A DNA stretch of 64,000 nucleotides, taken from Alopecurus myosuroides (taxonomy: Eukaryota > Streptophyta > Magnoliopsida > Poales > Poaceae). Each line of letters opens with the position of its first letter. Position 1 is the first letter of the stretch. The DNA lies in NCBI GenBank assembly GCA_028641055.1, contig CM054061.1:117034212-117098211 (forward strand), in the 5' to 3' direction. Positions 2,131 to 28,584 of the stretch are shown here, one piece after another. A program made the translations under genes and the position numbers. The notes beneath the pieces were generated by a model that did no database searches, was not told the origin of the DNA, and saw nothing but the letters and a program-made list of their open reading frames with translations.

Positions 2131-2343
2131 GAACATAGTCTTGATGACCCACAAGTATAGGGGATCGCAACAGTCTTCGAGGGAAGTAAAAAACCAAATT
2201 TATTGATTCTACACAAGGGGAACCAAAGAATATTTATGTGCCTTAACAACTGAGTTGTCAATTCAGCTGCACCTGAAAGTAGACTTTCTCTCAACAATTT
2301 ATCAGTTGTAACGGTTTTATAGCAGCAGTAGAAATAAAATAAC

Positions 2344-2823
2344 TGTCGTGGGATAAACACGGCAGACGTTACCGGGGGTAACTGATCTTGGGGCAAGACG
2401 ACACAGGCGTTTGGGAGAGGGTTTAGCTCAGAGGAAAACATGATGATGAACTTTGATCTGGAAGCCGGCAATCAAGTCGCCGAATCTCCGATCTCAAGAT
2501 AACAACTCAAATTGCACGCTACACTAGATACTCGATATTAGGCGAGATTGCTAGAACTCTTGGATCTTCTTTATACTAGACCTAGGGGTTGGTTTATAAA
2601 GCACCGTACCCCCCTGGCTTGCCCTCCAAGGCGCACCCTGAATCCTACCCGGACACCGCTTACAAACCCTAGCTTTCCTTACCGCAACCCACAATCCGGG
2701 TTACGAGGCTTGCAAACTTTGGGCCTTCCAGAAGTTTCGTCATCCTTAGCCGGATCCTGCGCCGTGTCCCTTGGGCCGGGTTACACCTTGGAGTTGGCCT
2801 ACCGGGTTATTATCCCTCCGTCA
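2344..2823 (-). repeat. 3' LTR of Gypsy-1
   Basis: Begins TGTCGTGGG and ends CCCTCCGTCA in plus-strand reading; matches 11873-12351 almost base for base. The internal side carries a purine tract on the minus strand (GGGGACTA) immediately before the LTR start, as expected for plus-strand priming. Confidence 0.95.
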
Positions 2824-3187
2824 GTAGTCCCCAGAATAGCTTGGGCTTCACGGATTCTTCCCTGAAGCACTGGCTATTCCCTGCAAAAATATCAAACGCA
2901 CAAGTGTAGGGAGGCCGGGTTAAAGTGCTTTGTTATATAGCTAGGCTTAACTCCATGGCAGCCATATAGTAACCCGACTTTTTCTCCAGATACTTTGCTT
3001 AACTTTCCCGGTTTAAGCTTTGATAAAATGCCAAAACTCCATACTTTGCTCGATAGTTGATCCTGATACCCCGGAGAGGATCTCTTGCTCAGTATTTGTA
3101 GCATATCTCGCAAACTTCGAACAAGTAGCCGTTACCCCGTAATTTCCGGGTCCCACTCGTTGGACTGAGTTTTTCCACCCGTGCCAT

Positions 3188-3195
3188 TATAAATA
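3188..3195 (+). promoter_or_regulatory. TATA box of the Gypsy-1 antisense gene
   Basis: TATAAATA sits about 0.8 kb upstream of the antisense gene ATG (3996). It is followed by a pyrimidine-rich leader (CTTTCCCCCATTCCTCTTCC). A plausible leader intron runs from a GTAAGT donor at about 3462 to the CTGCAG acceptor ending at 3986. This implies a promoter separate from the LTR and facing the opposite way. Confidence 0.6.
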
Positions 3196-3995
3196 GGCCC
3201 CTAGGGGTAACCCTAACCCCAACGGCTCACTTTCCCCCATTCCTCTTCCTTCCTTCCTCCGTGCTCAAGCCCACAGAGCGCCATTACGGAAACCTCGCGC
3301 GCATCGCCGGAGCCCATCTGTCGCCGGCTGCGCTCCGCCACAGTGCGTTCCGCCCCGCCGCCAAGATCCGCCACCAGACCCCCGACCTGCCCGCCAGGAA
3401 TCGCGAAGGGACACCAGGCTTGTGCCATTTGCCTCCGCAGGGCTTCACTTCGATCTCCTCCGGTAAGTCCCTCGCACCCATTAATTTTGCCCTTGCAATT
3501 TCAGGATCTTACCTTAGACCAGATCTGAATCGACCCGCCTATCATTTCTCGGGTCACGCCAAATTAGGAGGCTTGTATTCGTTCCAGCTCATCCAATGGA
3601 TAGGATATAGACTTCAGTTCACTCTCCTACTACCTGTAATCATTAATTTCTCCACAAATCTAGAAATGGGAATTCCAATCTGGGATCGGGCCACCCAAAT
3701 TTTCCACCCTTGTCCCTGTCACCCGGAAAATCCTCATTTTTCCAGTTATTTTGCTTTGCGATAGATACACGGGCAACCCTTCATCATTCCCGAACACTTA
3801 TTAACACATAAGCCTCTATAATTTTTATAGCAATGCATGACACCCGGATAATTTGAACCTTGCTCCGCAAAATGATACCCGGATAATATTTAACTTTCAT
3901 GTTGTCTCGATACCGCTCGTCAATACTCGACCAACTGACAGTTCCCGAGTCTTATTCCTCATGTCCTTCTACCTGGTACTCTGCAGGTTGACCCC

Positions 3996-6900
3996 ATGGC
4001 GCCCAAGAAGCAGGGGAAGCAGCCGACCAAGGCCAAGACTACCAACTCCATATCCGCCAACTGGGCGCGATCTTCGGTCACCAAGGCCAAGTTAGAAGAA
4101 TTGGTCGAGTTAGGGGTTCTTCCCCCTCAAGAAAATATTCACTGGAGGGTGCCGGGTAACGAGACCCGACCTACACCAGCAGAAAATGAGGTAATATGCT
4201 TTGTGGAGCACGTGACCCGGGGCTTCCGTCCTCCGGGTCACCCTTTCTTTCGTGATGTTTTGAGCCATTATGGCCTTCGCATATTTGACATAGGGCCTAA
4301 CTCTATGTTAAATATCTCTCACTTCATCGTCCTCTCCGAGTCATACTTGTGCACTCCGCCAAGTTTGGCTCTTTTCGTTGAACTTTTCCAGTGCAAACCG
4401 TGCCGCGAAAGCGGCGACGGGGCACTTCTCGCTTGCGGTGGGGTTTCTATCCAGCGCCGCAAGAACTCTCTAATGCCACCTCTTACCCTCAACTCCCACG
4501 TCAAACATTGGCAGCTTTCTTATTTTTACTGCCGGGACACCTCCCCACCCGGTGAAAAGAAATCACCGGGTTACTCGGAAGGCCTGCTTGACATCTCCGA
4601 GACCTTTAGCGCCTTCGCCCCTGACTCGGACAGGGAAGCAATCCTGCCTTTATTGGCTAAAATCTCCATTCTTTCGGCCCAAGGTCTCATCGGGCTTAAC
4701 CTGGTGAAAACTTGGGTCGATTTCCGTATCCAGCCCAACTCCATCCGCACAAAATTAATGTGCGAATACTCGGGGCAAACCACGGACCCGATCCGGTACT
4801 CCACCAACAGTTTCGCACCTGGTGATACCAATAAAACTATCAAAGGCTTTTTAACAGAAAAGCTGGAGGTAATCCGGAATATAGCCGGATTAGAGCCCTT
4901 CACCCGCGAGAACCCGGCCCCCGCGGTAAAGACCTGGTTTTCACATCTTCAACTTCATCCTTTCCACTTATTACAGCTAATAACCCTTGTTCTTATGCCT
5001 TCACTTCAGGCCGATGACGATTTCTGGAAGATTGACACTCCTCCTAACTCCGGAAACCCGGAGGAGAAAGAGGATGTCGTTAACTCGGATGAGGGTACAT
5101 TCTAAATTTCACTTAGTTCTTTTGAGTTCATCGTGTCCTGTTTTGCATTTCCCAACTGTAACCTTGATAACTTCCAGAACAAGAAGACAAGGACGAGGAA
5201 GAAGAAGCTGACGGCAAGGTGGAGTCCGCCAGCGACGAAGACGAAGCGGAGCCGATAATCAAGATCGGATCTAAGAGAAAACCTCAAGGGGTCGTCTTCA
5301 AGGTTCTATATCATTTCCTTGCGTTCAATTTGCATTCCTGTGATAACATGCATGAGCTAACCCTGATGTTATCCCTTTGACCGTATCTGAAGGAGTCGCC
5401 TATGACCAAGCGCAGGGCGACTCGGAATTACCCGGGTAATGATGCTCTTAACCCGGGTATTCCATCATCTCCAGCTCAGCGCGCTGGTATTCACCATACC
5501 CCTCTTTAAACATAAAAATCTTTCCAAACCATTCCCTCACAGGGTAATCTCATGTTTTGTTTGGTATTCTTCAGTTTCATCCGGGTCCAGCAGCGAATTC
5601 CCTGTGGACTTTGCGGTGAACCCCGGGTAAAGTTCTTTTCCTGATGTTATATCACACTTGCATCGCCCTTTCTTAATTATACGCTAACTGCCCACTCATA
5701 CCTTCTTTAGGGCCACGGTCATTGTTAGCGACCAGGAAGACATGGAGACCGATGACCCGGGTAAAGGGAAGCCGACTGATGATGTGTTAGCCACATCTGG
5801 CGACGAACTAGCGTCACCAACAAACCCGGCCAGGCAAGAAGCCGGGTATCCGATAGCCTCGCACGCAAGCGAGAAGGAAAAAGCCGCGACTTTGGGCGTA
5901 GGAGGAGGACCAGACTCCGACATTCGGATGACCCGGGTGCCGTCTCCTGCTAAGAAGAAAACTTCTTCTCCGAGTTTCCACGACCCCGGGTCTTCTAACT
6001 CGGGTAACGATAATTTTGATCAGCTGATGAGCGCTCTCCTCACCATGAAGGCCTCAGAGAGCAGTGTCCTAGAGCGCATGGCTGCAGCGCATCAGGTAAT
6101 AATACTTGATATCTCTTAGTATACGCCTAGTCCCCAAGTTCCGAGCATAGCTTGTTAAAGTTGTGCTTGGTACTTTGTGCAACATTCGGCTTGCTATGAT
6201 GCCCGACTGACACTTTCGCTCTCTGTTTCTTACAGGCGGAGGTGACCCGGTCCGATGAGATTTTACTCAAGACGGAACGACTCCTGCTTGCCGAGGTAAA
6301 ACGAAGAGAGGACCTTGAAGCTGACGTGGAAACCTTGAAGAAAGACGTTTCCAAATACAAGAAGAAGTGCAGTACTGCCCAAACCGCGCTGAAAAGATTA
6401 TCGGACCAGATTGCCGATACTTATCGCATCTTGCTTAGTGAGTTTTCGCTGCCGACTGACTTCGTGCCTTTACTTTGTCATATGATACTCTGGATTACTG
6501 ATATGCCCTTCCTTTGCTTCAACTGCAGGTGCCAACCTTGCGGCCCCAGAAGAAGATGTTGTTGCCAAGGCTAAAACCTTGAAGACTGTGCTCCAGACCT
6601 TTTTTGCCGGTATAAAGCTTATATTGGATGCCATGAAATGGCCTACCGAGGTATACCCGGGTGAGGAAAACCTTATTCAAGCCTGCTCCACAGTGCCTGG
6701 GTGGATCGAGATATGGAAACGCTCGGCCTGCCGGATTGGTATGACCCGAGCCTTTACACTAGCTAAAGCTTATTTTCCGAAGCTTGACCCGGCAAAGGTA
6801 ATATCCGGGTTTCCCGAATTCAAAGCTGATGGCTCCAGGTTTGTACCCAAGGATTTTAAGGCCATACAATCCTCGGTGCGCCACTCGGCAACCGCTTTGG

Positions 6901-7196
6901 CCGATAAGATGGATCTGGGCATGATTATGAGTTCATACGATGCTGAAGGCAACATCATACAGGAGAACGCACCCCCTCCCTTTGATATTTTGGAGAGATG
7001 GGCGGTTGATTTGGCCAGGAAGAAGGAAGAAACCGCTAAGAGAGAGGCCGAGTTAGGATCAGGGCCAACCACCTCTACACCAGCTGTCCCTCCGCCTGTC
7101 CGTCCTGATGCGGGGAGTCCGTGCGACGCCGCCGGGAAAGCTAAGGAGCAAGCCCAAAACCAAGACCCGGAGGGCCCTACTCAGGAGGCCGAATAG
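3996..7196 (+). CDS. Antisense spliced gene of Gypsy-1 (Transposase_28-like)
   Basis: Encodes a protein of the plant family annotated as 'putative gypsy-type transposon domain' (Transposase_28), known from antisense frames of Tat-like elements; biochemical function unknown. Exons seen: 3996-4925 (310 codons, conserved globular N-terminal region ending in ENPAPA), 5010-5094, 5178-5302 (acidic E/D run then basic KRK), 5393 to about 5434, a short exon near 5575-5629, about 5711-6094, 6237-6440 (coiled coil rich in Lys/Glu/Leu) and about 6530-7196 (helical C-terminal domain, stop TAG at 7194-7196). Most junctions have GT/AG ends and keep frame; the middle small exons are tentative. It lies opposite to gag, between the residual pol and the 3' LTR. 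No stop interrupts the large exons, which fits the young age of the element. Confidence 0.75.
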
Positions 7197-8250
7197 GGCA
7201 ACGCCATCATAATACCTCGATAACTTGATGTTGTGTATTCGAAACTAGTGTACTTTTGATCGTGCGCCTGTGCACCCTTGATATTGGTATCGTAATTTGT
7301 AACGTACTTTTACTCCGTGATGCACTTGTGCCTTTCCTGGCCTTTTGATAATCTTGATACTTGTCTATTCTTGAACTTATTCTCGATACCCGACTCTCTT
7401 TTTGGTTCCCCTTGTGGGACTCGGTTTTCCGAGTACCACGGGTTTTGATAAGCGGACTTTTCTTTAAGTCCCCAAGACTCGGATGCTAGGGTCTTTCGAG
7501 CTTTGATAGCCAAGCAGTTTGTTTCTGTTTCGAAGTCCCCAGTCCCCATGACCCAAAGTCCGAGTCAGGGGGGTGTGGCCTTTCTCAGAGAACAAATTGT
7601 TTTCTACCGAGCCGAAAACCTATAGCCGTCCCGTGTAGGTACTGAAGTTATGCTTGATAATCGTTGAGTTTTTGGCTATCAGCCTTGTACTCTGCATAAC
7701 TTGTGGTTTAGATGACCCTTTTGACTATCTTGTACTGTAAGCCGGTTTTCGCGTGGATACCATGTTGTTACATCTATACGAAAAACAGGGTCAGGCAAGT
7801 CCCATTGGGCTGCACGGCTGATTGTAATCGTAAGCGAACAGATCATGCCACTTTAGTGCGAGTCACATCGAGCTTAAGTAAGAATAGTCAAGAAAATTTG
7901 GCTCCTTTGTCCGGTTATAAGATTGCAGCCGTACTCGTCTTGCGAGTAGTCGGCCCTTATAACTCATAGGCATCAAGGCCGGGCCTTTGGGTTTGTGACT
8001 GTGCTATTCAAGCAACCAGCCCCCAAGACCTATTTATATGCGACATACTTGATGATACTGATGTACTGATAGCAGTGAATACTACTTACTTGTAATCGAA
8101 GCAAAGACCGTAATAAGACTTGATAACCATCTCTTTTACTGATACGAAAAAGTTTGGGTCAGCAGGACGCCTCATTAAAAACCTTCCAGTCCCCTTAGGT
8201 ACCCCGGGTAGGAAAAGAGCGCGTCTGAAACCTGCTGCCCGTTACATTGT
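7197..8250. other. Non-coding spacer between antisense gene and gag-pol remnant
   Basis: This kilobase is T-rich on the plus strand and has no domain-bearing frame. It separates the two convergent transcription units of Gypsy-1 and probably holds both 3' untranslated regions. The words GACGCCTCATTAAAAACC near 8169 lie close to the point where pol sequence has been lost (about 8290). No terminator could be identified. Confidence 0.5.
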
Positions 8251-11200
8251 TTAGTTCTTCTTGGGAATCGGTCCTGGGCTGACGCGACCGATGCACATTC
8301 TCCATTTGTTAGACTTTTTCATGATGAGTACCGGGTTTGCTAGCCAATCCGGGTGAGGTGTTCCCATAACGTGGCTAGCTGTGAACGGCGGTGTGATTTC
8401 TTCTCCTATGCCAGATTGTTTAGAGGAATCGTTCTTGATGAAAGCCACCATCTTAGCATCTTGTTCTGACCTGGGTTTTGCTTTTTCTCCTTCAGTGCTC
8501 GGCCTTTTTGAGGTGGTCCTGTCCTCCGGGTCTGCTTGAGACCGGTAATGTTTGAGTTCCTCTTTTCTACAGGCTTGCTCGGCCATTGCCGCGTCTCCTT
8601 CATCGCATTCAGCTGCTATATCTTGATTTCCATGTATGGTAATGGTCTGCTTAGGACCCGGAATTTTTAATTGTAGATACACATAACATGGCCTCGCCAT
8701 GAATTTAGCATAAGCCGGCCTTCCAAATAGCGCGTGATACGGACTGCGCAACTTAACCACCTCGAAAGTAAGCCACTCAACTCGATAATTGTCCTTTGAT
8801 TCCCCAAAAGCTACTTCCAATGCGATTTTTCCCTCGGGGCATGCTGAATGACCCGGTACTATGCCATGGAAAACTGTCGTACTTTTTTGGAGCTGAGATT
8901 CCTTGAGACCCATGCGTAGAAAGGTTTCCCAGTACAGGATATTGATGCTGCTTCCTCCATCCATCAAGACCTTTTTCAGTTCGTACCCATTGACCTGTGG
9001 TGCAACTACCAATGCTAAGACTCCCGGGTGTTCTACTCTTTCCGAGTTATCTCTTCTGCTCCACGTTACATCTTGTTCTGACCACCTCAAATATCTCGGG
9101 ATAGCCGAAGAGATTGAGTTGACCGCTTTCTTCAGTATCTTTTTATCCTTGTTAGAGCCTCCGGTAGTATGCACGTGATATTGACCCAACTGTTTGGGGT
9201 TGGCCTGGAAACCTCCAGCTCCCCCTTGATTGTTGCCCTGATTTCCGGCTGCCGGGTTACCGGCTGGGGGTGGGCTGTTGCCCGGGTTTCCACCCTGACC
9301 CGGTCCTCCTCCCCGACCCGCACCTCGCATGGCTCTGTTCACTTCCTCGTTCTTCCACCTCTGTAAGTCGGCGCATTGCTCCAAGGAGTGATTAGCCGGC
9401 TTGCCGTTCCTGCTGTGCTTTGGGCATGCCATTCTAAAGATGTCCCAACTGTTACCCGGCCTCGGAGGCCCTTGATAGTGTCCTCCATTGTGATTTCCAG
9501 TGTTAAAATTCCCCTCAGATCTGGGTCTCGAAGACCCGGCCTCTGTGTTGGCGACAAACTCGGAGCCTCCTTCAAACGGGCGCTTGTTCTGGCTATTTTC
9601 GTTATTACCCGGTGCTGATCCATTGCCGGTTCTTCCGCTATTACTTGTGTTTGCTTTTGCCTTTTTGTCATCAACTTCCTCCTCTGTAGTATCTGTTGCA
9701 GCGTGTTTGTTGCACGCATCCATTAATTCTCCCATTGTAACCTCCGACGCATTCCGACTGGATTTCATGCGAGTTAACTTTTGCACTAAAGGTATATACT
9801 TGCATGTTTTTGCCATAGCTTGTAGTGCATCCTTGGGCTGAATATCTGTGGATGAGTGAAGTATCTCCATAACCCGGCGCACCCAACTGCGCGCCGACTC
9901 TCCCTTCTTCTGAACGCATCGCTCTAGATCATCTATAGTGAACAATTTTCTGCACGTCCCATGAAAGTGCTTGACAAACGCAGTCTTCAGTTCTTCCCAG
10001 GACTTGATCGACCCTTCTGGCAGATTGGTGAACCATAACTTCGCTGCTCCCTCTGACATCATCAGGTACATGAACTTGGCTTGAAGATTCTCGGATGCAT
10101 TGCGAATAGACATTGCCATCTCATAGCTGCTCAACCATGTTTTTGGGTCCATAGTCGGCTCATAATTCACTACCTTTCCTGGTTCTTTGAATTTTTCCGG
10201 GTAAGGTTCAGCCCTGATGTTGTCCGAGAGACACTTAGGTCCTGCGAGAATGGTAGAAGCTGGCCTTACTCGGGAAACATGTGATCCGGCGGGGGGCACA
10301 GCCGGACGTGGTGCTGCTGGTAATTCCTGTACTAAAGACCCGGCCCCGGCTCTCCTGGCCCTGGAGCTATCCACAACCGCTTGCGCTGCTGATGCCGCCG
10401 GTACCGCCTGAATGTGGGGAGGAGGCGGCATTTGCTGGTGCTCTTCCCTCCGCCGCGCTAAACTTGCTGGGATATTGCCGGTATTTCCTCGTTGCTGGCT
10501 GACGTATGGCGTCCCATGCATCCCACTTCTATGATCCGGATAATTGGCTTGCTGTGCCACCGCAGTGTGTAACATATCGATCGCTTGCCGGGTCTGCTCC
10601 GCGTGGGGCGACTCTCTCACGGGGATTTGATTCAAAGCAAGAGTCGCTGCGTACACGTTATCCATAGGATTGTTGTAGTGACCTGCAGGTGTGCGAAAAC
10701 GCGACGGTGGTGGCAGTGGCAATGCGTTGCCGGTTGTAACCCCAGTCTGCGGCAAGGGTAACCCGGCCTGTTCGTTCGCCGGCTGTGCTCCCGTGGTTGC
10801 TGGCCGAGGTGCAGTTCCTTGGTTCGCCGCTGGGATCGGTTGGTCCTGAGGCGTGATAAACAATGTAGCCGGATTTATAACTCCACCCAACGCTGGTAAC
10901 CTGGTTTGGTGCATTTGATGTATTCTGGTTGTTTCCTCTCGGAGCCGGGTTTCCAATGCGTCCAGCTCACGTTGGCGCGTGGCCATCCCTTGTCTTTCTG
11001 CTTCTACTTGCCTTCTCTGTTGCTCCAACGCACGGCGGGCTACATCTAGATCCCTAGCACGCTCTGCAGCGTTCTCTGGGGTGATAACCGTGGCAAGAAC
11101 TGTGGGATCTAGGATCAGGTTGTTATCGAACAGAGCCGGGTGTCGTGGGTTTGAAGGCCCCGCCCCTGGTGTCCGATTTGCTAGGAATCCGAACGTATTT

Positions 11201-11970
11201 GCCTGCAACTCCTCGTCTGGCGCGCGACTGGTAACCGATGCCGATTCTCCGTCAACCCGGATCAGAACAGGGTTTCCGTTAGCCGCACCCTGCTGCTGGG
11301 CCAACGCTTGGGCTGCTCCGACTGCGGCCGTAGTCACGTTCTCTTGATTGAGGTTGGCCGCGGGTGCCGTGTAGACCGCAACTCGGCGTATGATGCTTGA
11401 CGTAAATTCGTGTTGTTCCTCTTCGCTATTATTCTCCTCGTACCGGTTCTCCAGCAGATCCAGGATGGACTCAGTATCATCTTTTCTCTCAACCAGGTCA
11501 CGCGGGGTCCATGCCGGCTCCCCCGGCTGTTCCCACTTCGTCACGGGTTCTTCTGCCGGATCTGCCGTTCCAACTGATTCTTCTCCATCTTGCTGGATAC
11601 AAGCGGCCTCCCCTGACATAGAATCAGATCCAAAATTGTCAGGGATCGAACCCGAAGTACATACCATACCGACGAAGACGCTAATCCGGCCGATTGTCAC
11701 GACGGATCCGGATTCGAGGTGATCCGACTCTGGCCCCCAGCCGGAATCGTCCACCATCTTGTCTCCTTTGTGGTCGATGTAGATCTCGCCGATGACGAGA
11801 TTCTCCATGTTCTTCCGAGCTTCTCCCGTGACGTAAACACCTTTGGACGCAGGCCCCACGGTGGGCGCCAACTGTCGTGGGATAAACACGGCAGACGTTA
11901 CTGGGGGTAACTGATCTTGGGGCAAGACGACACAGGCGTTTGGGAGAGGGTTTAGCTCAGAGGAAAACAT
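8251..11970 (-). CDS. Gag-protease polyprotein of Gypsy-1, with RT stub
   Basis: An uninterrupted 1239-codon frame. The first ATG (11968-11970) lies inside the 5' LTR and the frame crosses the primer site, giving RQLAPTVGP. Order: unique N-terminal region with Gln/Ala-rich coiled coil (about 11060-10940), Gag capsid-type domain (about 10170-9750; motifs PKTWLSSYE, WEELKTAFVKHFHG), a Gly/Asn-rich linker (about 9400-9200), then aspartic protease with VLMDGGSSINI near 8965 (DGG in place of DTG, as usual in this lineage). The frame ends in DWLANPVLIMKKSNKWRMCI, the start of reverse transcriptase, followed by 12 unrelated residues. Gag packages element RNA and protease cleaves the polyprotein. Loss of RT, RNase H and integrase makes the element dependent on a helper. 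Confidence 0.85.
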   Translation of the reverse strand: MFSSELNPLPNACVVLPQDQLPPVTSAVFIPRQLAPTVGPASKGVYVTGEARKNMENLVIGEIYIDHKGDKMVDDSGWGPESDHLESGSVVTIGRISVFVGMVCTSGSIPDNFGSDSMSGEAACIQQDGEESVGTADPAEEPVTKWEQPGEPAWTPRDLVERKDDTESILDLLENRYEENNSEEEQHEFTSSIIRRVAVYTAPAANLNQENVTTAAVGAAQALAQQQGAANGNPVLIRVDGESASVTSRAPDEELQANTFGFLANRTPGAGPSNPRHPALFDNNLILDPTVLATVITPENAAERARDLDVARRALEQQRRQVEAERQGMATRQRELDALETRLREETTRIHQMHQTRLPALGGVINPATLFITPQDQPIPAANQGTAPRPATTGAQPANEQAGLPLPQTGVTTGNALPLPPPSRFRTPAGHYNNPMDNVYAATLALNQIPVRESPHAEQTRQAIDMLHTAVAQQANYPDHRSGMHGTPYVSQQRGNTGNIPASLARRREEHQQMPPPPHIQAVPAASAAQAVVDSSRARRAGAGSLVQELPAAPRPAVPPAGSHVSRVRPASTILAGPKCLSDNIRAEPYPEKFKEPGKVVNYEPTMDPKTWLSSYEMAMSIRNASENLQAKFMYLMMSEGAAKLWFTNLPEGSIKSWEELKTAFVKHFHGTCRKLFTIDDLERCVQKKGESARSWVRRVMEILHSSTDIQPKDALQAMAKTCKYIPLVQKLTRMKSSRNASEVTMGELMDACNKHAATDTTEEEVDDKKAKANTSNSGRTGNGSAPGNNENSQNKRPFEGGSEFVANTEAGSSRPRSEGNFNTGNHNGGHYQGPPRPGNSWDIFRMACPKHSRNGKPANHSLEQCADLQRWKNEEVNRAMRGAGRGGGPGQGGNPGNSPPPAGNPAAGNQGNNQGGAGGFQANPKQLGQYHVHTTGGSNKDKKILKKAVNSISSAIPRYLRWSEQDVTWSRRDNSERVEHPGVLALVVAPQVNGYELKKVLMDGGSSINILYWETFLRMGLKESQLQKSTTVFHGIVPGHSACPEGKIALEVAFGESKDNYRVEWLTFEVVKLRSPYHALFGRPAYAKFMARPCYVYLQLKIPGPKQTITIHGNQDIAAECDEGDAAMAEQACRKEELKHYRSQADPEDRTTSKRPSTEGEKAKPRSEQDAKMVAFIKNDSSKQSGIGEEITPPFTASHVMGTPHPDWLANPVLIMKKSNKWRMCIGRVSPGPIPKKN
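11852..11871 (-). other. Primer binding site of Gypsy-1
   Basis: Minus-strand TTGGCGCCCACCGTGGGGCC, immediately internal to the 5' LTR. It is identical to the site in Gypsy-2 at 18006-18025 although the LTRs of the two elements are unrelated. The first bases TGGCGCCC fit a tRNA 3' end; the exact tRNA was not assigned. Confidence 0.8.
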
Positions 11971-12351
11971 GATGATGAACTTTGATATGGAAGCCGGCAA
12001 TCAAGTCGCCGAATCTCCGATCTCAAGATAACAACTCAAATTGCACGCTACACTAGATACTCGATATTAGGCGAGATTGCTAGAACTCTTGGATCTTCTT
12101 TAAACTAGACCTAGGGGTTGGTTTATAAAGCACCGTACCCCCTGGCTTGCCCTCCAAGGCGCACCCTGAATCCTACCCGGACACCGCTTACAAACCCTAG
12201 CTTTCCTTACCGCAACCCACAATCCGGGTTACGAGGCTTGCAAACTTTGGGCCTTCCAGAAGTTTCGTCATCCTTAGCCGGATCCTGCGCCGTGTCCCTT
12301 GGGCCGGGTTACACCTTGGAGTTGGCCTACCGGGTTATTATCCCTCCATCA
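11873..12351 (-). repeat. 5' LTR of Gypsy-1
   Basis: Near-identical partner of 2344-2823. A TATAAA motif at 12122-12129 (palindromic TTTATAAA) is a candidate core promoter for the minus-strand transcript. The gag start codon at 11968-11970 lies within this LTR. Confidence 0.95.
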
Positions 12352-13548
12352 ATAACAGCAGTAGCAAAATAATAACAACAGTAGCAATCGCGGAAAACAG
12401 CAGGATGAGTACCGTAGGCATAGAGGGAATGGATGAACGGGCGTTGCATGGATAACAAGGGTCATGTAATAATAGTAACGTGGCCATTACAGATAATAAT
12501 AATAAAGTATCAAACATGTAGGCAAACCATAGGCATGTGTTCCAATATAGTCGTACGTGCTCGCAATTAGAAACTTGCACAACATCTTTTGTCCTACGAG
12601 CCCGTGGGAGCGGGGCCTCTAGGGAAACTACTAGTAATTAAGGTGCTCCTTTTAACAAAGCACTGGAGCAAAGCATTAACACTCCATGAACACATGTTAT
12701 CCTCACATCACATCCATCCCTTCCGGTTGTCCCAATTTCTGTCACTTTGGGGCCTCGAGTTCTGGACAACAATGTGTGTAAACAACTTGCGGATATGATC
12801 AAGAAACATAATTATACTCATGAAACAATAGCATGTTCAGATCTGAAATCATGGTACTCGGGCCCTAGTGACAAGCATTAAGCATAACAAGTTGCAACAA
12901 CGGTAGAAAACACTAACAATGGATAATAGGCACTATGCCCTGACAATCTCGCATTATTACATGATCAATCTCATCCAATCCCTTCCATCCCTCTCAGCCT
13001 ACAACGGGGTTTACTCACTCATGGACGGGGGAAACATGGATGGTTGATGGAGAAGGAGTGGCGGTGTCGATGGCGATGATCTCCTTTCAAAACCCCGTCC
13101 CGGCAGGGTGCCAAAACAGGAACTTCTGATCCCCGAATTGAGTTTCTAGGTGGCAGCGGCGCTTTGTTGTGTTTCTGTGGAATATGACGAACCCCCTCGC
13201 ATTTTAGGGTTGAAGGCAATATGTAGTCGAATGGGGAGTCCGAGGGGGTGCCTAGGTGGCCCACACCACCCCGCGACATGGCCAAGGGGGGCACCATGGG
13301 TGGTGTGGCCCCCTCCTGGCCCCTCTCCGGGTCTCCTTCTGGCTTCCGGGGTCTTCTGGTGTTTTAGGGCCAATGGAGTCTTTTCTAGGCAATTTCCCGA
13401 AAGTTGATTTTTCTGCACAAAGACGAGACACCAAGGTAATTCTGCTGAAAACAACGTTAGTTCGTGTTAGTGGTATCCAAAACTCACAAGTTTAGAGGAA
13501 AACAATAAGAAAAGTGTTCGGGAAAGGAGATACGTTTTCGACGTATCA

Positions 13549-15384: not shown

Positions 15385-15596
15385 TCAAGTCAAGCTACTT
15401 GAATTAATGATATTTAGCTCATTCCTCAAAAACATGAATCTTGAATTATCTAGAGCCTTCGTGAATATGTCCGCGAGATTATCCTTGATTGGGACATATG
15501 CTAGCTCAATATCACCTCTTTCCACATGATACCGGATGAAATGATGACGAATCTTAATATGCTTCGTCCTTGTGTGTTGCACGGGGTTGTAGGTGA
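15385..15596 (-). pseudogene. Copia RNase H, C-terminal half
   Basis: The frame contains NPVQHTRTKHIKIRHHFIR and IKDNLADIFTKALD, the hallmark C-terminal RNase H motifs of Copia polyproteins, and ends shortly after. Its N-terminal half lies at 33703-33997, 18 kb away. The join falls between the NESAIKI and NPVQH motifs, and GGTGA is duplicated at both edges (15592-15596, 33698-33702). The gene was therefore split by insertion of the 15597-33697 unit. The element is otherwise mostly lost. Confidence 0.88.
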
Positions 15597-17463
15597 TGTC
15601 ACACCCCAGTTTTTGGAATCTTGTACTGTGTTCAAGAAGACAAAAAATTAGGGCCAACAATTTTTTTTCTAACAACATGATTGTTTTAACTAACATGTGT
15701 TTATGATCTTACTCATATTTGCAACACAAGTTTTGTTTCTTGATAAAACCAATACCAAATTTTTCCTGAAAAAAGACTTCTATTATTTTTCCTGGTATTT
15801 TTCCCTGATGTTGTGTGAGTGGTTTTTATTCCAAGACTTGGATTATTCTTGGTTGCATCTTAAGATAAAATTTTAACTTTGTTGGATCCAAGGAAACAAA
15901 ATTTCAAAATGATTTATGGAAGTTTTCTTTTAAGTTTTCTATAGAAACTATTTCCTGAAAATATAGCCAAGTACCTGTTTTCTACCTTTGTTTTCACTAG
16001 GCTATAAAATGTTATTTTATGTTTTCTTGACTTTTATTTGTTCCTTGATATTTGTACAAAAAATCCATAAGCTTGGTTTTGTTTTTGTATTAATAAAAAT
16101 TATATTTTGCTTGTTGTTTTTCTGGTATAAAATTAAGACAGAAAAGGGCTTTTTTTGGAAAACAGAGAAAAACAAAAAGTACACATTTTCACACATTGTT
16201 TTCATGGCCGTAAACTATTTCAAATTTGTTTCCAAAAGATGTTTCTGAAAGTTTATAACATGGTTAACAAGTTCCCACTTTGAAAACAAATTTTGGAAAC
16301 CATTTGACCCTTGAAAACAAATCCAACTTTTTGATTATTCCATCTGTTTTCAACGCTTAGAAAAATTCTCTAAGTCTTAAGACTGAATTTTCTGAATTTT
16401 TGAACAGTGTGAGATACATTTTTGGACAGATGTTTTCTTTGTTTTTCTTTGCAAGTTTTGAGGTGTAACCTTGTCAAGTGTGTTGACCTTAGTACCGACT
16501 CGAACCAGGATGTGCCCTTTTGTTACTAGAAGCCTTGTGAGTGAAGAAAACTTGAGAGAGAAGGTGATGATGTGGCATTGGTATGGGCACCCATAACTTG
16601 CCCTTTGCCACCTTAACCTTGACCCATTATGCATCCAAAGGCCAGGCATTGACTTGCCCTTTCGTGGTCTTGCCCTGGGCCAGCCTTGCCTCGAGGTGGA
16701 AAGACCAAAACCGCCCCTGGACGCCCTCATGCCATCAAATGGCATCCAATCGAGACCTAGCCATGCCATTTCCCTTATCCCCACGGCTACAAGCCATTAC
16801 TCCCATGTCCCTCTCGCCACTAGGCTCCCACACCTCCCCACTCTCACCTCGAGCTGAAGGAAGCAACCCCAGGATCTCCTGCGAGCTCCATGAGCCAGAA
16901 CCTCGCCGCCGGCCACCGCGAACACCCCGAGGTGGTATCGCACAATCCAGGCCCTCCCACCCCACCTCACTGCCCTGGACGAACTCCCCATCTCTCTCTG
17001 ACCCGCGCTGACCTTTTTCCTTGGCCTCTGCCCCGCAGGAAACGCCGCCGCCGTCCATGGTCGCCGCCATGGGCACCTGCCGCGCGCCGCCGCCTGGAGC
17101 CGCGCTCGACGCCACCAACTGCGCCCCTCGACGCCCCTCAACCCCTGGACCTTCCTCGACACCGTGCCGCCCCTTTTTCATTGCCCCACGATGAACCTCG
17201 CCGTTGCCCATTTCTCCGTCGCGTCGGAAGAGAGAGAGGAGAGGGAGGTGGAAGAACGCAGCGCAACCGCCCGATCTAAGATCGATGACCACGCTTGAAC
17301 GGTCGTAGTTCCCGTGCTGGCCGCATGCGCACAGCTTGTTTGGGCCTCGCCGCTAGTTAGCTGGGCCGCGCCCGCGAGAAACCCCAGCCCGTCTTTGTTT
17401 TCTTTTTTCCTTTTATAATTTGTGCAGATTTGACATGTTTGCTTTGGCTCTGTGAAAAATAAC

Positions 17464-18004
17464 TGTCGGATATATACCAAATAGGGGTATATCTGATGGT
17501 AGTCTAAAGTGCCGGATTGCCCGGGTGGCCCGAATGGTAGTGGGCTACGGTCCATTGGGCGGCCCAGTAAGCTGACGCACAGAAGCCGGATTCTAGAAGA
17601 ACCCGGATCACGGCCCACGTGATCTGGCTTGGAGTAGAAGGCGGATTCCTTACTTTCCAAGTTAATAGTTGTCGTAGTCTTCTATGTTTTCTACTCTGTA
17701 TGCCCTAACCCGGCTATTATATAAAGCCGGGCGGGAGATATGATAGATAGAGAAGAAGATATAGGCTAACTCGCCGGGAAGTTGATCCTCAGCGAATAGC
17801 TAAACAGAACCTCACGTTGTACTTGTATACACAGGCTTTAGTCCTGATTAGTGAGATTGCAGGAGTAGGAACGCCGCATTGTTGCGACGTGCCGAACCTG
17901 GGTAAACGCTGTGTTTTTCTTCTTCGCCCAACCACGTCTCCCCACGTCTCTACCCGTAGTCTCATGGCACCCCCGTCTATGAAAACTACTACGATGTCTC
18001 GACA
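17464..18004 (+). repeat. 5' LTR of Gypsy-2
   Basis: Begins TGTCGGATATATACC and ends GATGTCTCGACA; matches 28941-29481 at all but about 14 positions. It contains a TATA box (17718-17725) and the gag start codon (17964). Confidence 0.95.
17718..17725 (+). promoter_or_regulatory. TATA box in Gypsy-2 LTR
   Basis: TATATAAA in the context GGCTATTATATAAAGCCGGG, repeated at the equivalent place in the 3' LTR (about 29195). A CACGTG G-box core lies upstream at about 17616 in GGCCCACGTGATC, a common plant promoter element. Confidence 0.65.
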
Positions 18005-20834
18005 GTTGGCGCCCACCGTGGGGCCGACGGCGTCAGGCGTTAAATTCCGATTTGGGATACTTGGCGGAATCAGCAGTTCCATAACCGTCGGAAGCCTGGA
18101 GTTCGACGGCGATGTCAGATGCTTCCTCGACAATGGATCTTACATACCGGCGCAAAATCACCTGGTAAGTGCCTGCGTGTTACCGATTGGATCTACAAAT
18201 ATCTTTATCGGACTAACTGCAGAGGCCATGGGGTTTTGCGGTGGAAGCAAATTTTTCCCGCCCGCCCTATACCCAGTCGAAGACGACTATGACACCGGAT
18301 TTTGCTCAGATCACCGACAAAAAAGTGATTCACACTTTATCGGTATGGTGCAATCCGAGGTCGCCGAAAACACGGATGAAAGTAATCCCGTGCAAGAGGA
18401 AGAAAACAGCAAACCCACTACAGAGGTGGAAGATCCGACATCCGCCAATCCAGCGATGAACTCGGAAGCTGACTCTGTGCTAGCCGCCATTGAGGCGAGA
18501 TTAGAGTCAGAAACCGGATCAGATGACTTTGATTCCGAAGACGAAGACGTGGACGCCTTCGAAAGAAAAGTTAAATCTTTTCAGGAGGGATTCCATGAAG
18601 TACTAATGGGGAAACCGGTTGAAAACACGGACGCCGGCAGTCAGGAAAGCCCTAGAACTCCTCCGCCAGAGGAAGAGAGAGAAGATGGAGAAACTTCTCC
18701 AATATTCCCCAATGTCAAAGAATTGACAGAGGATGAACCTGCTAAAAAGCCTCCCTCTTCCAAGAAAAAGCACAAGGCCGCTAAAAAACTCCAGTACAAA
18801 CTCCGGAAGAAGAAATTGGCTGACCCAGCTGATGAAAGCCCGGAAGTAGGAGATGCAAGCGGAACAAAACTTGTGGAGAAGAAAATAAAAGAAATCCTTG
18901 TTCCACCAATGACAGAGCAAGAAGAACATGAATTGTTACAAACACCAGTGGGATTGCATGAACCCCCTGAAGTGCTAGAAGCCAGGAGACAAGCTCTCCA
19001 ACGGCAATAGCAACATCTATTCAGAACTCGTGAACACCTCCAAAAAACCCAGGATGACATCAAGCTCATGAAGGAAGAAATCGAGGAGTACGAGAAAAAG
19101 AATAGATCTGCCATTAAACTTACAAGGTTACCTGGAATCGTAAGACTGGAAGTACTGCCGCCAAAAGAAAGGTTTCACAACCCATCTTGGCAAAAGCAGG
19201 TAAACGACAAAGATGCTAGAGGCGAACCAATATACAAAACCGCAGCAGAAATCGCGGAAGCAGTGTTCGCCATCCTCAACAACGATATGTACTCAAACGG
19301 TGAAAAACTTCAAGGGGTGTATGCTTTCCTCGGAAAGGCATTGCAGCAACAGCACCGGGGGAAAGAGCGATCAGGGAGGCTGCATGACGACTCCGCCCTA
19401 TGCAAAACAGCTACTTGCGCCGCTGGAGCACCCGGACCGGAGGAACCAAATGAGAAGAAAACAGATCCGAGAAAAGACAAGAAAAATCCCGATAATAGGG
19501 ATGAAGCGTCTAGAACCGGATCCCATCTCCCAAAAGGTGGATTTAACACCCACGATCAGGAAGAAAAATACCGGAATGACGGCAAAGCAATGCCACCTCC
19601 GAGAAGCCCAGCTGAAAAGGCTGGAAGACAGGGTATACCTCACAGGCGTGAGAGATCTCAGACACCCCCCAAGGACAAGGAAAGATACAGGAGTAGAACT
19701 CCACCTCATCCAAAGGGACGTGATATCGGAAGAAATAGAGACGATCCCGGAAAAGCGCGTCCGCGCAACAATGGAAAAGAAAGGAGTAGATCCCCTTCTG
19801 TCCATTCAGCTGGCAGGTACTCCGCACACATGGATAGGGCGGAAAGAGACGGCTTATACTTTGGACCTAAATGCTTCACAGATAGGATCCGAAGGATAAC
19901 CCTTCATTCTGGCTTTGCCAAAGTTGGTCCAACGTACCAAAAGCACACCGGTAGTACAAACCCGGATACCTGGCTCTTAGACTACTATACAGCCATCCAG
20001 ATTAACAATGGGACAGACCTGGAAGCTGTAAAGTTTCTTCCCCTAATGTTACTGGATGGAGATAGAGATTGGATTAACGGATTACCTTCCAGAACTGTTG
20101 ACAGCTGGGATGATATGGCTCGGGTATTCACTCAGCATTTCCGGGGAACCTACAAACGCCCGAATAGCATCAACCAGCTAAACCGTTGCACCCAGTTTGA
20201 AGACGAACCATACGTGGATTTTATCTCAAGATGGACTGCAATGAAGAATAGCTCCTCTGGAGTAACTGACGTTCAAGCAATGCATGCTTTCGTCAATGGC
20301 CTAAAACCCGGACTTGTACCGTCCATGGTCGGTTCCAAACAGCACAAAGATCTCAGATCTATGCTTACAACCGCCAATGAACATGCTGTAGCCGAAGACG
20401 ACATCAGAGCTAGGGGAGGCAGTATCGACACACTGATACAGGCCAAAAAGAATCCTCGCCCTGAGAAAAAAGGAGCTCCAGATGCAACACAAAAGCCCAA
20501 AGAAGTTAACATAGCCTTTGGAAGTGAAAAAGCGAATAGGTGGAAAGGACGCAGTTCGGAACCAATTAATTATACCAAAGAAGAATGGGAAAAGATTAAG
20601 TCAGAACCCTGCGTCCACCATTCGCAATTTGGAAAACCCACCCATACGAACGCACAATGCCGGCTGAACAAGCATATGAAAGGCAGTGCAGGATCCGGAA
20701 ACAAGGGAAAGAATTCCAAAAGGAAATTTTCCAAGCAAAAGCCAGAAGCTGAGAAAGAAGACAGTGAATCGGACACTGACGAAAAAAATCCAAGAACAAC
20801 AGCGAAAAGACGAACCCAAGTTTCCGAGGGTTGA
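17964..20834 (+). pseudogene. Gag of Gypsy-2, one in-frame stop
   Basis: The first in-frame ATG (17964) lies in the 5' LTR; translation crosses the primer site as RQLAPTVGP. The frame is open to a TAG at 19008-19010 and continues in the same frame to a TGA at 20832-20834. The first part is acidic and Glu/Ser-rich with a Lys-rich KKHKAAKK tract. The second holds a coiled coil, an Arg/Pro/Ser-rich basic region (about 19600-19810) and the Gag capsid-type domain (about 19910-20450; motifs PDTWLLDYYTA, WDDMARVFTQHFRGTY). The stop context is CAA TAG CAA, so it is either a simple Gln-codon decay or a read-through site. Gag forms the cytoplasmic particle that packages element RNA. Confidence 0.8.
18006..18025 (+). 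other. Primer binding site of Gypsy-2
   Basis: TTGGCGCCCACCGTGGGGCC one base inside the 5' LTR, identical to that of Gypsy-1. It is translated in the gag frame as LAPTVGP after the LTR-encoded residues. Confidence 0.8.
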
Positions 20835-21636
20835 TGGAGAGTGTGCCCTAACTTTCCTGGCAACTCCATCAGCAAAGGTGGCAAAAAGAACGATTCGAGA
20901 GATAAACGCGGTTGTTCCGGCAACCCCGAAATTCTTGAAGTATTCAAATACACCAATTACCTGGGATCAGTCTGATCATCCCGGGAATATCCCTGAACCC
21001 GGCACGCAAGCCCTTGTTGTAAACCCTATTGTCCAGAACACTAGGCTAAGAAGAGTGTTGATAGATGGAGGATCCAGCATTAACATAATGTACCTGGATA
21101 CACTGAGGCATCTGAAAATCTCCGAGACTCAGCTCAACCACAGCAACATACGTTTTCACGGCATTGTTCCTGGCAGGCAAGCACGATCCCTAGGAGAAAT
21201 TTCCCTAGATGTCACTTTCGGAGAAAAAGATCACTTCCGTCAGGAAAAAATATCATTCGAAGTGGTGCCGTTCGAAAGCGTGTATCACGCGATACTCGGA
21301 CGTCCAGCTTTCGCCAAATTCATGGCAAGATCATGTTATATCTATAACAAGCTGAAGATGCCAGGGCCAAAAGGAGGAGTAATCACCATATCGGGAGACT
21401 TCAAGTTGGCAAACAAGCTGGAAAAAGAAAACGCCCTTTGCGCTGAGAAAATCATAGCAATGGAAGAGTTGAAGGAGCTGGCCAAAGAGGTATCGCCGAC
21501 AGAAATGCCGGCAGGAAAAGAAACCCAGAAGCCAACAGATAGCTTCAAGGCCTCCGAGAACACAAGACAGGTAATCCTAGATCCCAACAATCCGACAAAA
21601 TTTGTCGTGGTGGGAACTGGGATGACCGACAAATAG
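20789..21636 (+). pseudogene. Protease region of Gypsy-2, out of frame with gag
   Basis: This frame is +1 relative to gag and overlaps its end; the switch is best placed at or near an A7 run (20782-20788). It encodes the aspartic protease: the catalytic site VLIDGGSSINI at about 21057, a flap-like segment, and HAILGRPAFAKFMA at about 21287. The frame ends at TAG 21634-21636, and pol resumes in the same frame directly after, so this stop also interrupts the polyprotein. Homologous residues in Gypsy-1 are continuous with gag, so the frame change is probably decay. Confidence 0.75.
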
Positions 21637-24600
21637 GAAAACGAGCTCATCAAGTTCCTCCGTGAGAACTGGGATATTTTTGCCTGGTGTCCAGCTGACA
21701 TGCCAGGCGTACCCAGGGAACTGGCTGAGCATCAACTTAAGGTGATTTCAGGCTCCAAACCCGTCAAACAAGGTCTCCGTCGATTTGACGGAAGAAGACG
21801 GAAGGCTATCGGCAAGGAAATTATCAGGCTTTTAGCAGCAGACTTTATCGAGGAAGTTATACACACCGATTGGTCCGCAAATCCGGTGTTAGTACCGAAG
21901 AAAGATACCACTGCCCTTAGAATATGTATAGATTACACCGATTTAAACAAACTGTGTCCAAAAGATAGGCTTGCTTTACCGCGAATCGATCAAATAATAG
22001 ATGCCACTGCAGGCTCTGAGCTCTTATGCTTTTTGGATGCATATTCCGGGTACCATCAAATACGCATGAAAAAAGAAGATCAAATTCAGACTTCTTTTAT
22101 AACCCCCTATGGGACGTACTATTACATAACCATGCCATTTGGCCTGAAGAACGCAGGTGCCACCTACCAGCGTTGCATGCAACATTGTTTGCATAGTCAG
22201 ATTGGCAAAAACGTCCATGTTTACGTGGACGACATTGCTGTCGTAACCAAGGAAAGAGACACACTCCTTGAGGATTTACGAGAAACCTTCGAAAATTTGC
22301 GCACTTACAAGATGAAGTTAAATCCATTAAAGTGCGTATTCGGGGTTCCCTCAGGAAAACTTCTGGGTTTCATCATTTCTCACAGAGGAATAGAAGTTAA
22401 CCCAGAAAAGATCAAAGCAATCTTAAACATCTCCAAACCTACGTGTGTAAAAGATGTCCAAAGATTCACGGGTTCCGCCACAGCCGTCAGCAGATTTATT
22501 AGTCGGCTGGGGGACAAAGCTTTACCACTCTACAAGTTGCTGAAAAAATCCGACAAATTCGAGTGGACAGAAGAGGCAGATGCGGCGTTAACCCAGTTAA
22601 AGGTAACTTTGATGAAAGCTCCGATTTTGGCATCGCCAAAAGACGAAGAACCTATGTTATTGTACCTAACGGCTACAAACCGGGTTATCAGTGCAGTAAT
22701 TGTTGTGGAGCGGAAGAAAGACGAACAGAGCATACCAGACCAACATCCGGTATATTATATAAGCGAAGTCTTCTCCGAATCCAAACAAAGGTATCCACAT
22801 TATCAAAAACTGGCATATGGCGTATTTTTCGCGTCCAGAAAACTTCGCCATTACTTCCAAGGACATTCCATAACGGTGGTATGTAAAGCACCACTAGGGG
22901 ATATAATAAACAATGCGGAGGCGACTGGCCGAGTAGCCAAATGGGGCATCGAGTTAACAGCCTTCGACATTAAGTATCAGCCCAGGACGACAATAAAATC
23001 CCAGGTTTTGGCAGATTTTATCGCCGACTGGACTGAAGCAATGGAGAAAACACCAATGCCGGAGTCCGAGTATTGGATCATGCATTTTGATGGATCCAAG
23101 ATGAAGGAGGGCGCTGGAGCTGGTGTAGTTTTAAAATCCCCTAAAGAAGACACAATAGAGTATGTATTACAAATACACTTCAACGCCAGCAACAACGTGG
23201 CAGAATACGAAGGTTTGCTTCATGGCTTGCATATTGCAAAAGAAATAGGGGTCAAGCACATTTTGTGCTATGGTGATTCAGATTTGGTACAGCATCAGCT
23301 CAACCAAACGTGGGACGCAAAAAACCCCATAATGGCCGAATATCGGAGAACGGTGGACGAGTTCGCCATTTGTTTCTTCGGATTCGAAGTACTCCATGTT
23401 AAACGGAAGGAGAATTGGAACGCAGATGCGTTAGCCCGCATGAGATCAGAAAGGATAAAAATCCTACCACCAGGTGTTTTCGTCCAACATTTGTACGAAC
23501 CATCGATAAAAGGCGGAGATGTTGACTATCCTCTGGCTTCCGAGTCAATTGAAGTCATGCTCGTCAACCCGGATTGGACAATCCCATATATAAACTTCTT
23601 AGTTAATCATAAGTACCCGGAAGGAGCAGATGAAGTCTTGCAAAGACAAATCCAGCGTCGATGCAAAGGATTTACGGTAATTAACAATTGCATGTATAAA
23701 CGCAGTACTTCCGGAATTTTTCTGCGATGTATTTCACCAGAAGAAGGACAAGAAATCCATGCCGGAGATTGCGGACATCATGCTCAATCAAAAAGCATAG
23801 TTAAAAAAGCATTCCGTGCCGGGTTTTTCTGCCTAACAACCAAGACAGATGCTGAGTACATAGTAAACACATGTGAAGGATGTCAGTATTACGCCAAGCA
23901 GACTAATATGCCAGCCCAAGCACTCAAAACTATCCCCATTACATGGCCCTTCGCGGTCTGGGGGCTAGATATGATGGGACCATTCAAAACTGCACGAGGC
24001 GGACTTACACATCTACTTGTAGCTGTGGACAAATATACCAAGTGGGTGGAGGCTAAACCCATCAAAAAACTTAACGGTGTAACTGCCAGAAATTTCATCA
24101 TTGACATAGTCATGAGATACGGCGTTCCACACAGCATAATAACCGACAATGGGACAAACTTTTCCATTGGAGAGTTGGCAAAATATTACCGACAAAGGGG
24201 AATTCGCCTAGATCTCGCATCTGTGGCACACCCGCAATCCAACGGACAGGTTGAAAGAATGAATAGCTCAATCCTGCAAGGAATACGTCCAAGACTCGAA
24301 TCTCCTCTTCATAGAGCAGCTGGAACATGGGTAGAAGAGTTACCTTCCGTGCTTTGGAGTATTCGAACAACACCGAACAGGTCAACAGGGCAAACCCCGT
24401 TTTTCCTAGTTTACGGTGCAGAGGCAATTCTTCCAACGGACATGATCCATGACAGCCCAAGAGTGCAAAATTTCGATGACTCGGATGCCGAAAAAGCACG
24501 ACAGGATGCCGTCGATCTCTTAGAAGAGGAACGAGAACTTGTGCTCCAAAGATCCGCCATCTATCAGCAAGGTTTACAATGTTATCATAGTCGGAAAATC

Positions 24601-24858: not shown

Positions 24859-25487
24859 TTCAATTCTATGTAAACATCTTTGAGATCATGAAATAAAGTT
24901 GTCGGAATTCTTATATCCATGTTTTTTACAAGTTTATTATAGTTCAAAACATGATTCCACCTTATCTATTTCCCAATGATCTTACAAAATACTCAATATT
25001 AACCCGAATTGTGCCTGCGTGCTCGGCGTTTAAAAACTGAATGATTTTCAGCCTGCCAAAGGCTAAAGGAAACTCGGATTGTGCCTACGTGCCCAAGTTT
25101 CATTCAAAAAATTCCTTACTGTTCTCTAAGCATTATCTGATTGTTTGTGTGTTGGGTCACTGGAGCTAGTTAGTAAAAATGCCTTTAGTATGATCCATGT
25201 TTCCGAGTTTGAACTGATTGGTTTCACCCAGTAACTCGGCATGACGATTCACAATACTATTGAGCCATTTCAAACACTAAGGACAGTTAAAACACATAAG
25301 CCAGAGAACTTAGAAGATAAAGGAATATAAAAACCCGGAAAACTTGCAAAGGATTTCATAATTAAACTGCAAAAGGCGGAGTACTTGTTTATACAAAAGG
25401 ATAGAAGCATTACAATATAAGTTTACATTGTAAAGTGCAGTAATGCTCCTATTTTATACTTCCACCATCTAGGTTAAGGACAACCCT
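24859..25487. other. Spacer between pol and antisense gene in Gypsy-2
   Basis: Non-coding, AT-rich. It separates convergent pol and antisense-gene units and contains the paired words AATTGTGCCTGCGTGC and GATTGTGCCTACGTGCCC near 25010 and 25080. AATAAA at 24893-24898 is a possible poly(A) signal for the plus-strand transcript. Confidence 0.5.
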
Positions 25488-28443: not shown

Positions 28444-28576
28444 GGAGTGGCGCTTGGGCGTCTCCGGTGAGGACTTGGACGCGGTGGCGTTTGGGAGCTT
28501 TTCTCTGCTGTGAGCTTAGGCGCTGGAGTGGCGTGCGAAGTGAGAGCGGAAGTTTTTCGTTGAGGACGAAGAAGGC

Positions 28577-28584
28577 TATTTATA
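28577..28584 (-). promoter_or_regulatory. TATA box of the Gypsy-2 antisense gene
   Basis: Minus-strand TATAAATA in the context GGCTATAAATAGCC, about 135 bases upstream of the ATG at 28443. It lies in the internal region, outside the 3' LTR that starts at 28941, so the antisense gene has its own core promoter. Confidence 0.6.

Follow-up and report, generated by a model that had tools for sequence, protein, structure and literature searches.

Why would a retrotransposon that has lost its own enzymes keep a long gene, predicted to be spliced, on its antisense strand? The question is raised by a Ty3/gypsy element at 2344-12351 of a 64,000-nucleotide stretch of the Alopecurus myosuroides genome (assembly GCA_028641055.1, contig CM054061.1; the whole stretch is called the window below, and its positions are used throughout). 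A sequence-only reading had described, on the plus strand at 3188-7196 and antisense to gag, a spliced gene with a TATA box and a leader intron, and had suggested that its product is kept by selection or needed for mobilization. We consider it probable that this is an antisense accessory gene of a Retand-type element, with several exons, its own RNA polymerase II promoter and a predicted product of 829 amino acids. Its exon-intron structure is intact and its coding sequence is under purifying selection in a family of hundreds, after the loss of pol, which suggests that the gene has a function for the element itself.

A gene antisense to gag, predicted to be spliced

The gene model is in line with the sequence-only reading: TATAAATA, the TATA box, lies at 3188-3195 on the plus strand and is followed by a leader exon and eight coding exons which, joined across GT-AG introns, give a single frame of 829 amino acids with no internal stop (Table 1). 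The splice sites were picked by eye. The longest frame, 388 codons, exceeds that in every one of 1000 dinucleotide shuffles of 3188-7196 (maximum 264), and G+C content is 0.49-0.66 in exons versus 0.36-0.45 in introns. The lengths of introns 3463-3986, 5095-5177, 5436-5574, 6096-6235 and 6438-6528 are not divisible by three. Coding exon 4 has three candidate donors, the GTs at 5436, 5457 and 5487: each would keep the frame, and all are present in 37/37 copies.

The long intact first exon of the sequence-only reading is indeed open for 388 codons, but this frame probably holds an in-frame intron of 84 nt (4926-5009) that by chance stays open. The A. aequalis protein P0005 lacks this stretch, with its flanks joined directly; in four other relatives similarity is lost directly after an NPAP-like motif, and a fifth relative ends there. 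A second element of the window, described below as element 2, has GTAAAA at the place equivalent to the 4926 donor. Shared variants within the stretch (1 nonsynonymous, 2 synonymous) are too few for a coding test.

The predicted protein belongs to the Transposase_28 (TRP28) family, as had been proposed, with a PF04195 match at E 1.2e-21 (77.1 bits against a cut-off of 26.2). By composition, the acidic and basic sections described earlier are present (an acidic stretch at 5010-5302 and a basic exon at 5393-5435); the coiled coil fared less well, with only weak family hits below their cut-offs. The C-terminal exon (6529-7196) has no Pfam match; besides its likeness to P0005 (47% identity) it is 34% and 22% identical to its counterparts in two other TRP28 families. 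A protein search with the first frame returned 6 relatives, a search with the last exon alone returned none, and one with the joined product found none among the best 7994 candidates scored, missing even P0005. A scan of viral contigs for relatives found none.

Table 1. Features of the antisense gene and its host element (window positions)
Feature	Position	Strand	Basis or remark
Target site duplication ATAAC, left	2339-2343		sequence
Long terminal repeat, 3' in the element's gag sense	2344-2823	-	alignment with right long terminal repeat
TATA box of antisense gene	3188-3195	+	TATAAATA; 37/37 copies
Leader exon	3215-3462	+	donor CCG/GTAAGT; start site predicted from TATA spacing
Leader intron	3463-3986	+	GT-AG
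First coding exon, ATG at 3996	3987-4925	+	omega-like 0.17 (variants in at least 2 copies)
Transposase_28 (TRP28, PF04195) domain	4194-4397	+	residues 67-134
Probable in-frame 84-nt intron	4926-5009	+	GTAAAG..TTCAG; absent from P0005; element 2 same place
Coding exon 2, acidic	5010-5094	+	exon chain, composition
Coding exon 3, acidic, KRK basic patch near end	5178-5302	+	exon chain, composition
Coding exon 4, basic	5393-5435	+	end may be 5456 or 5486
Coding exon 5	5575-5626	+	exon chain
Coding exon 6	5711-6095	+	exon chain
Coding exon 7, coiled-coil-like	6236-6437	+	weak family hits below cut-off; 15 K/R and 13 D/E in 67 amino acids
Coding exon 8, C-terminal domain, stop TAG	6529-7196	+	47% identical to P0005
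Spacer, antisense gene to pol deletion point	7197-8289		sequence
Gag frame and protease-like part	8251-11640	-	open frame; upper limit of coding part approximate
Pol deletion junction, after WRMCI of reverse transcriptase	8289-8290	-	35/36 further copies; 471 genome places
Long terminal repeat, 5' in the element's gag sense	11873-12351	-	comparison of the long terminal repeats
Target site duplication ATAAC, right	12352-12356		sequence

Integrity of the gene among copies

The window copy was compared with 36 further copies (L002-L037), together the best 37 of 16,622 first-look candidates in the 3.57-Gb assembly (3227 contigs, C1-C7 being of 352-782 Mb). The ATG and the TATA box are present in 37/37 copies, the latter with 0 changes in 288 copy-sites versus 6.6 expected, and 16/37 copies are open throughout with every GT-AG intact. 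Splice dinucleotides show 3 changes in 1152 copy-sites, versus 54.3 expected from intron interiors; 3/32 of their sites are polymorphic versus 401/1131 comparison sites (P 0.002), and 13/16 of the used dinucleotides are invariant versus 173/348 of the unused GT or AG in the region. Of the indels found in at least two copies, the exonic ones are of 3 and 6 nt and the four intronic ones all of 1 nt; among singleton exon indels, 11/13 break the frame. Intron 5095-5177 is kept in all 36 further copies aligned.

Selection on the coding sequence

An omega-like ratio was obtained by comparing the 583 biallelic coding variants with a null in which each base change is placed at random among sites of like methylation context; only biallelic sites in the coding exons were used, and sites were treated as independent. 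The earlier proposal that the product is kept by selection had named dN/dS among copies as its check, with values near 1 speaking against it, and variants shared among the 37 copies lie well below 1: 0.37 for those in at least two copies (48 nonsynonymous, 69 synonymous, 3 stops), 0.33 for at least three (26, 41 and 0, versus 43.4, 22.4 and 1.2 expected) and 0.26 for at least six. As separate classes, variants in exactly two copies give 0.42 and those in three to five copies 0.49. Singletons, most of which are younger than the insertions, comprise 277 nonsynonymous, 178 synonymous and 8 stop variants versus 308.1, 139.1 and 15.8 expected, and the difference between them and variants in at least three copies is significant for the whole coding sequence (Fisher, P 0.0008). 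With L036 and L037 removed, the ratio is 0.32 for variants in at least three copies and 0.86 for singletons.

The signal is strongest in the TRP28 exon, where variants in at least two copies give 0.17 and the comparison of shared with singleton variants gives P 3.7e-5 (C-terminal exon 0.16, middle 0.68). On a tree of the copies, internal branches give 0.38 overall (TRP28 exon 0.12, middle 0.74, coiled coil 0.50, C-terminal exon 0.54), the long branch of L037, a copy without pol, gives 0.22, and the remaining terminal branches give 0.72. Purifying selection on the antisense protein in a lineage already without pol is thus supported, since the shared-variant, internal-branch and L037 values are all low. 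On the gag side (8254-9796), variants in at least two copies give 0.25 and singletons 0.66; this comparison used 33 sequences, the window and 32/36 further copies, four having fallen to a 1,300-nt length filter.

A lineage without pol

Pol is lost, as the sequence-only reading had it: the minus-strand frame reaches the first residues of reverse transcriptase (RT; ..NKWRMCI) and then gives way to unrelated sequence at 8289/8290. The same junction is found in 35/36 further copies (L036 has no adjoining sequence) and, in a separate search, was spanned by 40/40 scored matches. A 40-letter pattern across it, allowing at most three mismatches, matches 471 genomic places (reversed control, 0). This is a non-autonomous family, with a common enzyme deletion and copies amplified after it. 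A pattern in which the RT start runs on into RT was found at 3 places, each with 3 mismatches, a count that is a lower bound because the pattern asked for D where all three have N. At one of these, L080, the 3 kb examined have a frame that passes without interruption from the protease-like part to RT; over 625 nt of that part, L080 and the 2344-12351 element share 81% identity. L080 is a candidate for the type of helper family involved.

In a large lineage without pol in which two genes are kept under selection, the enzymes must come from elsewhere. RT and integrase would be supplied in trans by pol-bearing relatives, and Gag and the antisense protein would be retained for favoring the element that encodes both; that is, Gag and the TRP28 protein may favor the copy encoding them, with the enzymes being borrowable. 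The introns would survive in antisense orientation because the sense genomic RNA that is reverse-transcribed carries them as an unspliceable complement. As to biochemistry, our best guess would be that the protein is nuclear and oligomeric, binds DNA and regulates the expression or chromatin of its own element.

Alternative explanations

Several observations weigh against an antisense gene still serving its element. Its transcription and splicing are predictions from genomic sequence, and a 40-mer joining 5010-5094 to 5178-5302 (one junction, at most three mismatches), as expected of a spliced retrocopy, occurs 0 times in the genome, although retrocopies are not necessarily to be expected of an mRNA that has no LTR ends. 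Fold searches of the product gave no match, so that DNA binding is without structural support here. A synonymous excess is also seen in singletons (omega-like 0.70), three stop variants are each present in two copies, and in variants shared by at least two copies constraint is weak outside the TRP28 exon: 0.59 in the middle (P 0.09), 0.48 in the coiled coil (P 0.22) and 0.54 at the C-terminus (P 0.05), none significant at 0.05. The minus-strand mirror frame also gives a low value (0.39), because its third positions coincide with those of the gene. P0005, to which the in-frame intron owes part of its support, is itself a gene model, and much of the TRP28 domain is missing from it too; copies similar to the window are favored because only 37 of the 16,622 candidates were scored. 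One alternative is that selection on the gene ended when the lineage lost pol, leaving a passive relic whose seeming constraint comes from exchange with pol-bearing elements. A stop, frameshift or lost splice site in 21/37 copies, singleton transversions that look neutral (omega-like 1.08) and the existence of L080 are what such a relic would lead one to expect. We nevertheless consider it unlikely: the copies with the pol-less junction (35/36) still give 0.32 once L036 and L037 are set aside, the pol-less L037 branch gives a lower value still, the RT-continuing pattern is found at no fewer than 3 places versus 471 for the pol-less junction, and L080, the pol-bearing relative at hand, differs by 19% over the 625 nt compared.

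Could the antisense RNA, or the DNA of the region, matter (in packaging, or through double-stranded RNA) and the protein not? Antisense RNA has been raised as a possible regulator in such elements (in the review PMC7264820), and the TATA box and leader-intron splice sites are conserved. Constraint here tracks codons, however: the frame is kept by the shared indels of exons but not by those of introns, and the omega-like ratio of 0.33 in the right frame compares with 1.87-2.48 in four of the five other frames and with 1.05 when the leader intron is read in codons, shared variants there being neutral. An RNA- or DNA-level role without the protein is therefore quite improbable. Least credible of all is an annotation artifact, in which a frame long by chance and fortuitous splice sites on the antisense strand were mistaken for a gene; the model was built from sequence with splice sites chosen by eye, but 0/1000 shuffles reached the frame length, PF04195 is matched, the splice sites are conserved and the layout is alike in two other families. 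An accessory gene maintained for its protein remains the explanation that we prefer.

The host element and its surroundings

The LTRs of the 2344-12351 element (480 and 479 bp, flanked by a 5-bp duplication, ATAAC) are 98.8% identical over 486 aligned columns. Grass genomes accumulate substitutions at 1.3e-8 per site and year, and from this rate and the LTR identity the insertion would be young, about 0.5 million years old. The internal region measures 9,049 bp even without pol. Of the gag-protease that the sequence-only reading had placed on the minus strand, gag is borne out by a single open frame with a PF03732 match (E 1.1e-9); the protease part goes by a DGGSS motif seen by eye and by similarity to L080, a Pfam search of the gag frame having given no protease match, and is called protease-like for this reason.

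Retand elements carry an antisense TRP28 open reading frame (ORF) between pol and the 3' LTR in a long internal region; here, too, the antisense gene adjoins the 3' LTR. The Retand-type assignment is made from the position of this ORF and the long internal region, RT being deleted in the family. An extra RNase H between RNase H (RH) and integrase (INT) is also given as a Retand feature (PMC6317226); pol is absent in the 2344-12351 element. A tandem array was looked for inside the element and none was found. Just outside it, at 1666-1770, lies a short GGCCGG-rich tandem repeat of 21/42 bp, and at 15385-15708, on the minus strand, a fragment that by eye resembles the end of a copia polyprotein.

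Other TRP28 families in the genome

TRP28 relatives are very abundant in this genome: a search with one relative gave 69,430 first-look candidates, and the best 121 of them were scored. Element 2 (window 17462-29481) is a Retand-type element with LTRs of 543 bp (97.4% identical) and an open pol frame; its Pfam matches include RVT_1 (E 7.1e-29), rve (1.8e-8) and gag (8.1e-11). Its antisense TRP28 gene, on the minus strand, has a TATA box at 28584, an ATG at 28443 and six coding exons, with 837 codons including the final stop and one premature stop in the window copy. The first exons of the two genes are 29% identical, and their last exons align weakly (hhalign probability 52, E 1.4e-4). The order is the same in a third family (L076, L077): TRP28 comes first, then acidic and coiled-coil-like segments and a C-terminal domain, the last being the one that is 34% identical to the 6529-7196 exon. 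A C-terminal domain with 16 invariant columns is common to the three families (6529-7196; L077:4976-5599; window 25488-25927).

An over-represented hexamer

The most over-represented hexamer of the 2344-12351 element is ACCCGG, which occurs 60 times; 300 dinucleotide shuffles had 5.5 on average and never more than 13. It is found in both orientations, spread over LTRs, introns, gag and antisense exons. It is in excess in gag (20 versus 4.7) and the antisense coding sequence (22 versus 5.1) when compared with synonymous-codon shuffles, and in non-coding DNA of the element (12 versus 1.4); each copy has 27-31 in the 4-kb region. In two of three loci of another TRP28 family the motif and its variant rank high among hexamers, AACCGG 1st and ACCCGG 4th in L075, ACCCGG 1st and AACCGG 2nd in L076; ranks are weaker in the third locus, L074 (AACCGG 6th, ACCCGG 9th), and in element 2 (ACCCGG 12th). 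Six control segments of the window have 0-2 ACCCGG each and no enrichment, the 42 kb of window outside the two elements has 7, two arbitrary 3-kb stretches of the genome have 2 and 3, the 5.6 kb adjoining L076 has 6, and 3 kb of the pol-bearing L080 has 8; the specificity of the motif to TRP28 elements is judged from the window segments and these few stretches. CGs within ACCCGG are less polymorphic than other CGs (13/48 versus 191/386, P 0.003), with the same trend in singletons (11/48 versus 130/386); for variants in at least three copies the deficit at ACCCGG CGs is not significant (P 0.22). A mutational cause of the lower polymorphism, such as local methylation, is possible.

A speculative thought, which we hold to be doubtful, is that the TRP28 protein is a putative self-recognition factor that binds ACCCGG (ANCCGG variants in related families) and protects or activates the copies that carry it. 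The TRP28 gene might then be kept though the enzymes were lost because a partner's protein would prefer another variant of the motif.

Relation to known systems

The first descriptions of antisense ORFs of this kind date from the late 1990s (as cited in PMC7264820). TRP28 ORFs in antisense mark Retand, being found in 97% of recently active clusters, including those of Alopecurus myosuroides, and TRP28 is predicted to bind DNA (Vicient, 2025; PMC11963269). The 3188-7196 gene shares with them its domain, its antisense strand and its place between pol and the 3' LTR. The survey used ORF Finder calls, and in its main text the words "intron", "purifying" and "selection" are absent and "splic" occurs in the references only; a family without RT would escape it, because its elements were mined by intact RT. 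Two Alopecurus myosuroides clusters of the same survey, 2 and 3b, are likewise non-autonomous, having kept GAG, aspartic protease (AP) and TRP28 and lost RH and INT; these were found by RT and have LTRs of 564-577 bp, whereas here the LTRs are of 480 bp and RT is cut off just after it begins.

Gene23 of the maize element Grande is transcribed from its own promoter and has a nuclear product (Gomez-Orte, 2013, as summarized in PMC7264820); going by that description, it and the 3188-7196 gene are alike as antisense accessory genes that sit in the 3' internal region and have a promoter of their own, a predicted one in the latter. The closest parallel to an accessory protein that reads a motif spread over its element is VANC, the anti-silencing protein of the VANDAL elements (Hosaka, 2017; PMC5735166), a type of system in which the protein binds the motif and removes methylation. 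The likeness is in working only: in both cases a plant element would combine an accessory protein with a short motif enriched in the element, binding to ACCCGG being putative. VANDALs are a different kind of element, and VANC21 motifs are mainly non-coding, often in tandem repeats and in one orientation; ACCCGG is instead dispersed on both strands, 42 of its occurrences being in gag and the antisense coding sequence together and 12 in those non-coding pieces that were covered.

Our literature searches, which were not each aimed at every point and whose scope did not extend to the original Grande, RIRE2 and Retand papers, found neither splicing of a TRP28 gene nor selection on TRP28 reported, and no mention of the C-terminal domain or the ACCCGG motif. 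The class of antisense TRP28 ORFs was thus known; what the present sequences would add is a spliced gene under selection after the loss of pol. The ORF of the surveys perhaps corresponds to no more than coding exon 1 of a gene that is spliced and has another conserved domain, and ORF-based surveys would miss the rest. ACCCGG offers a concrete DNA motif for testing TRP28 function, and a family without pol that keeps Gag and TRP28 separates what can be borrowed from what must be self-made, so that the question of what the antisense gene does for these elements becomes testable.

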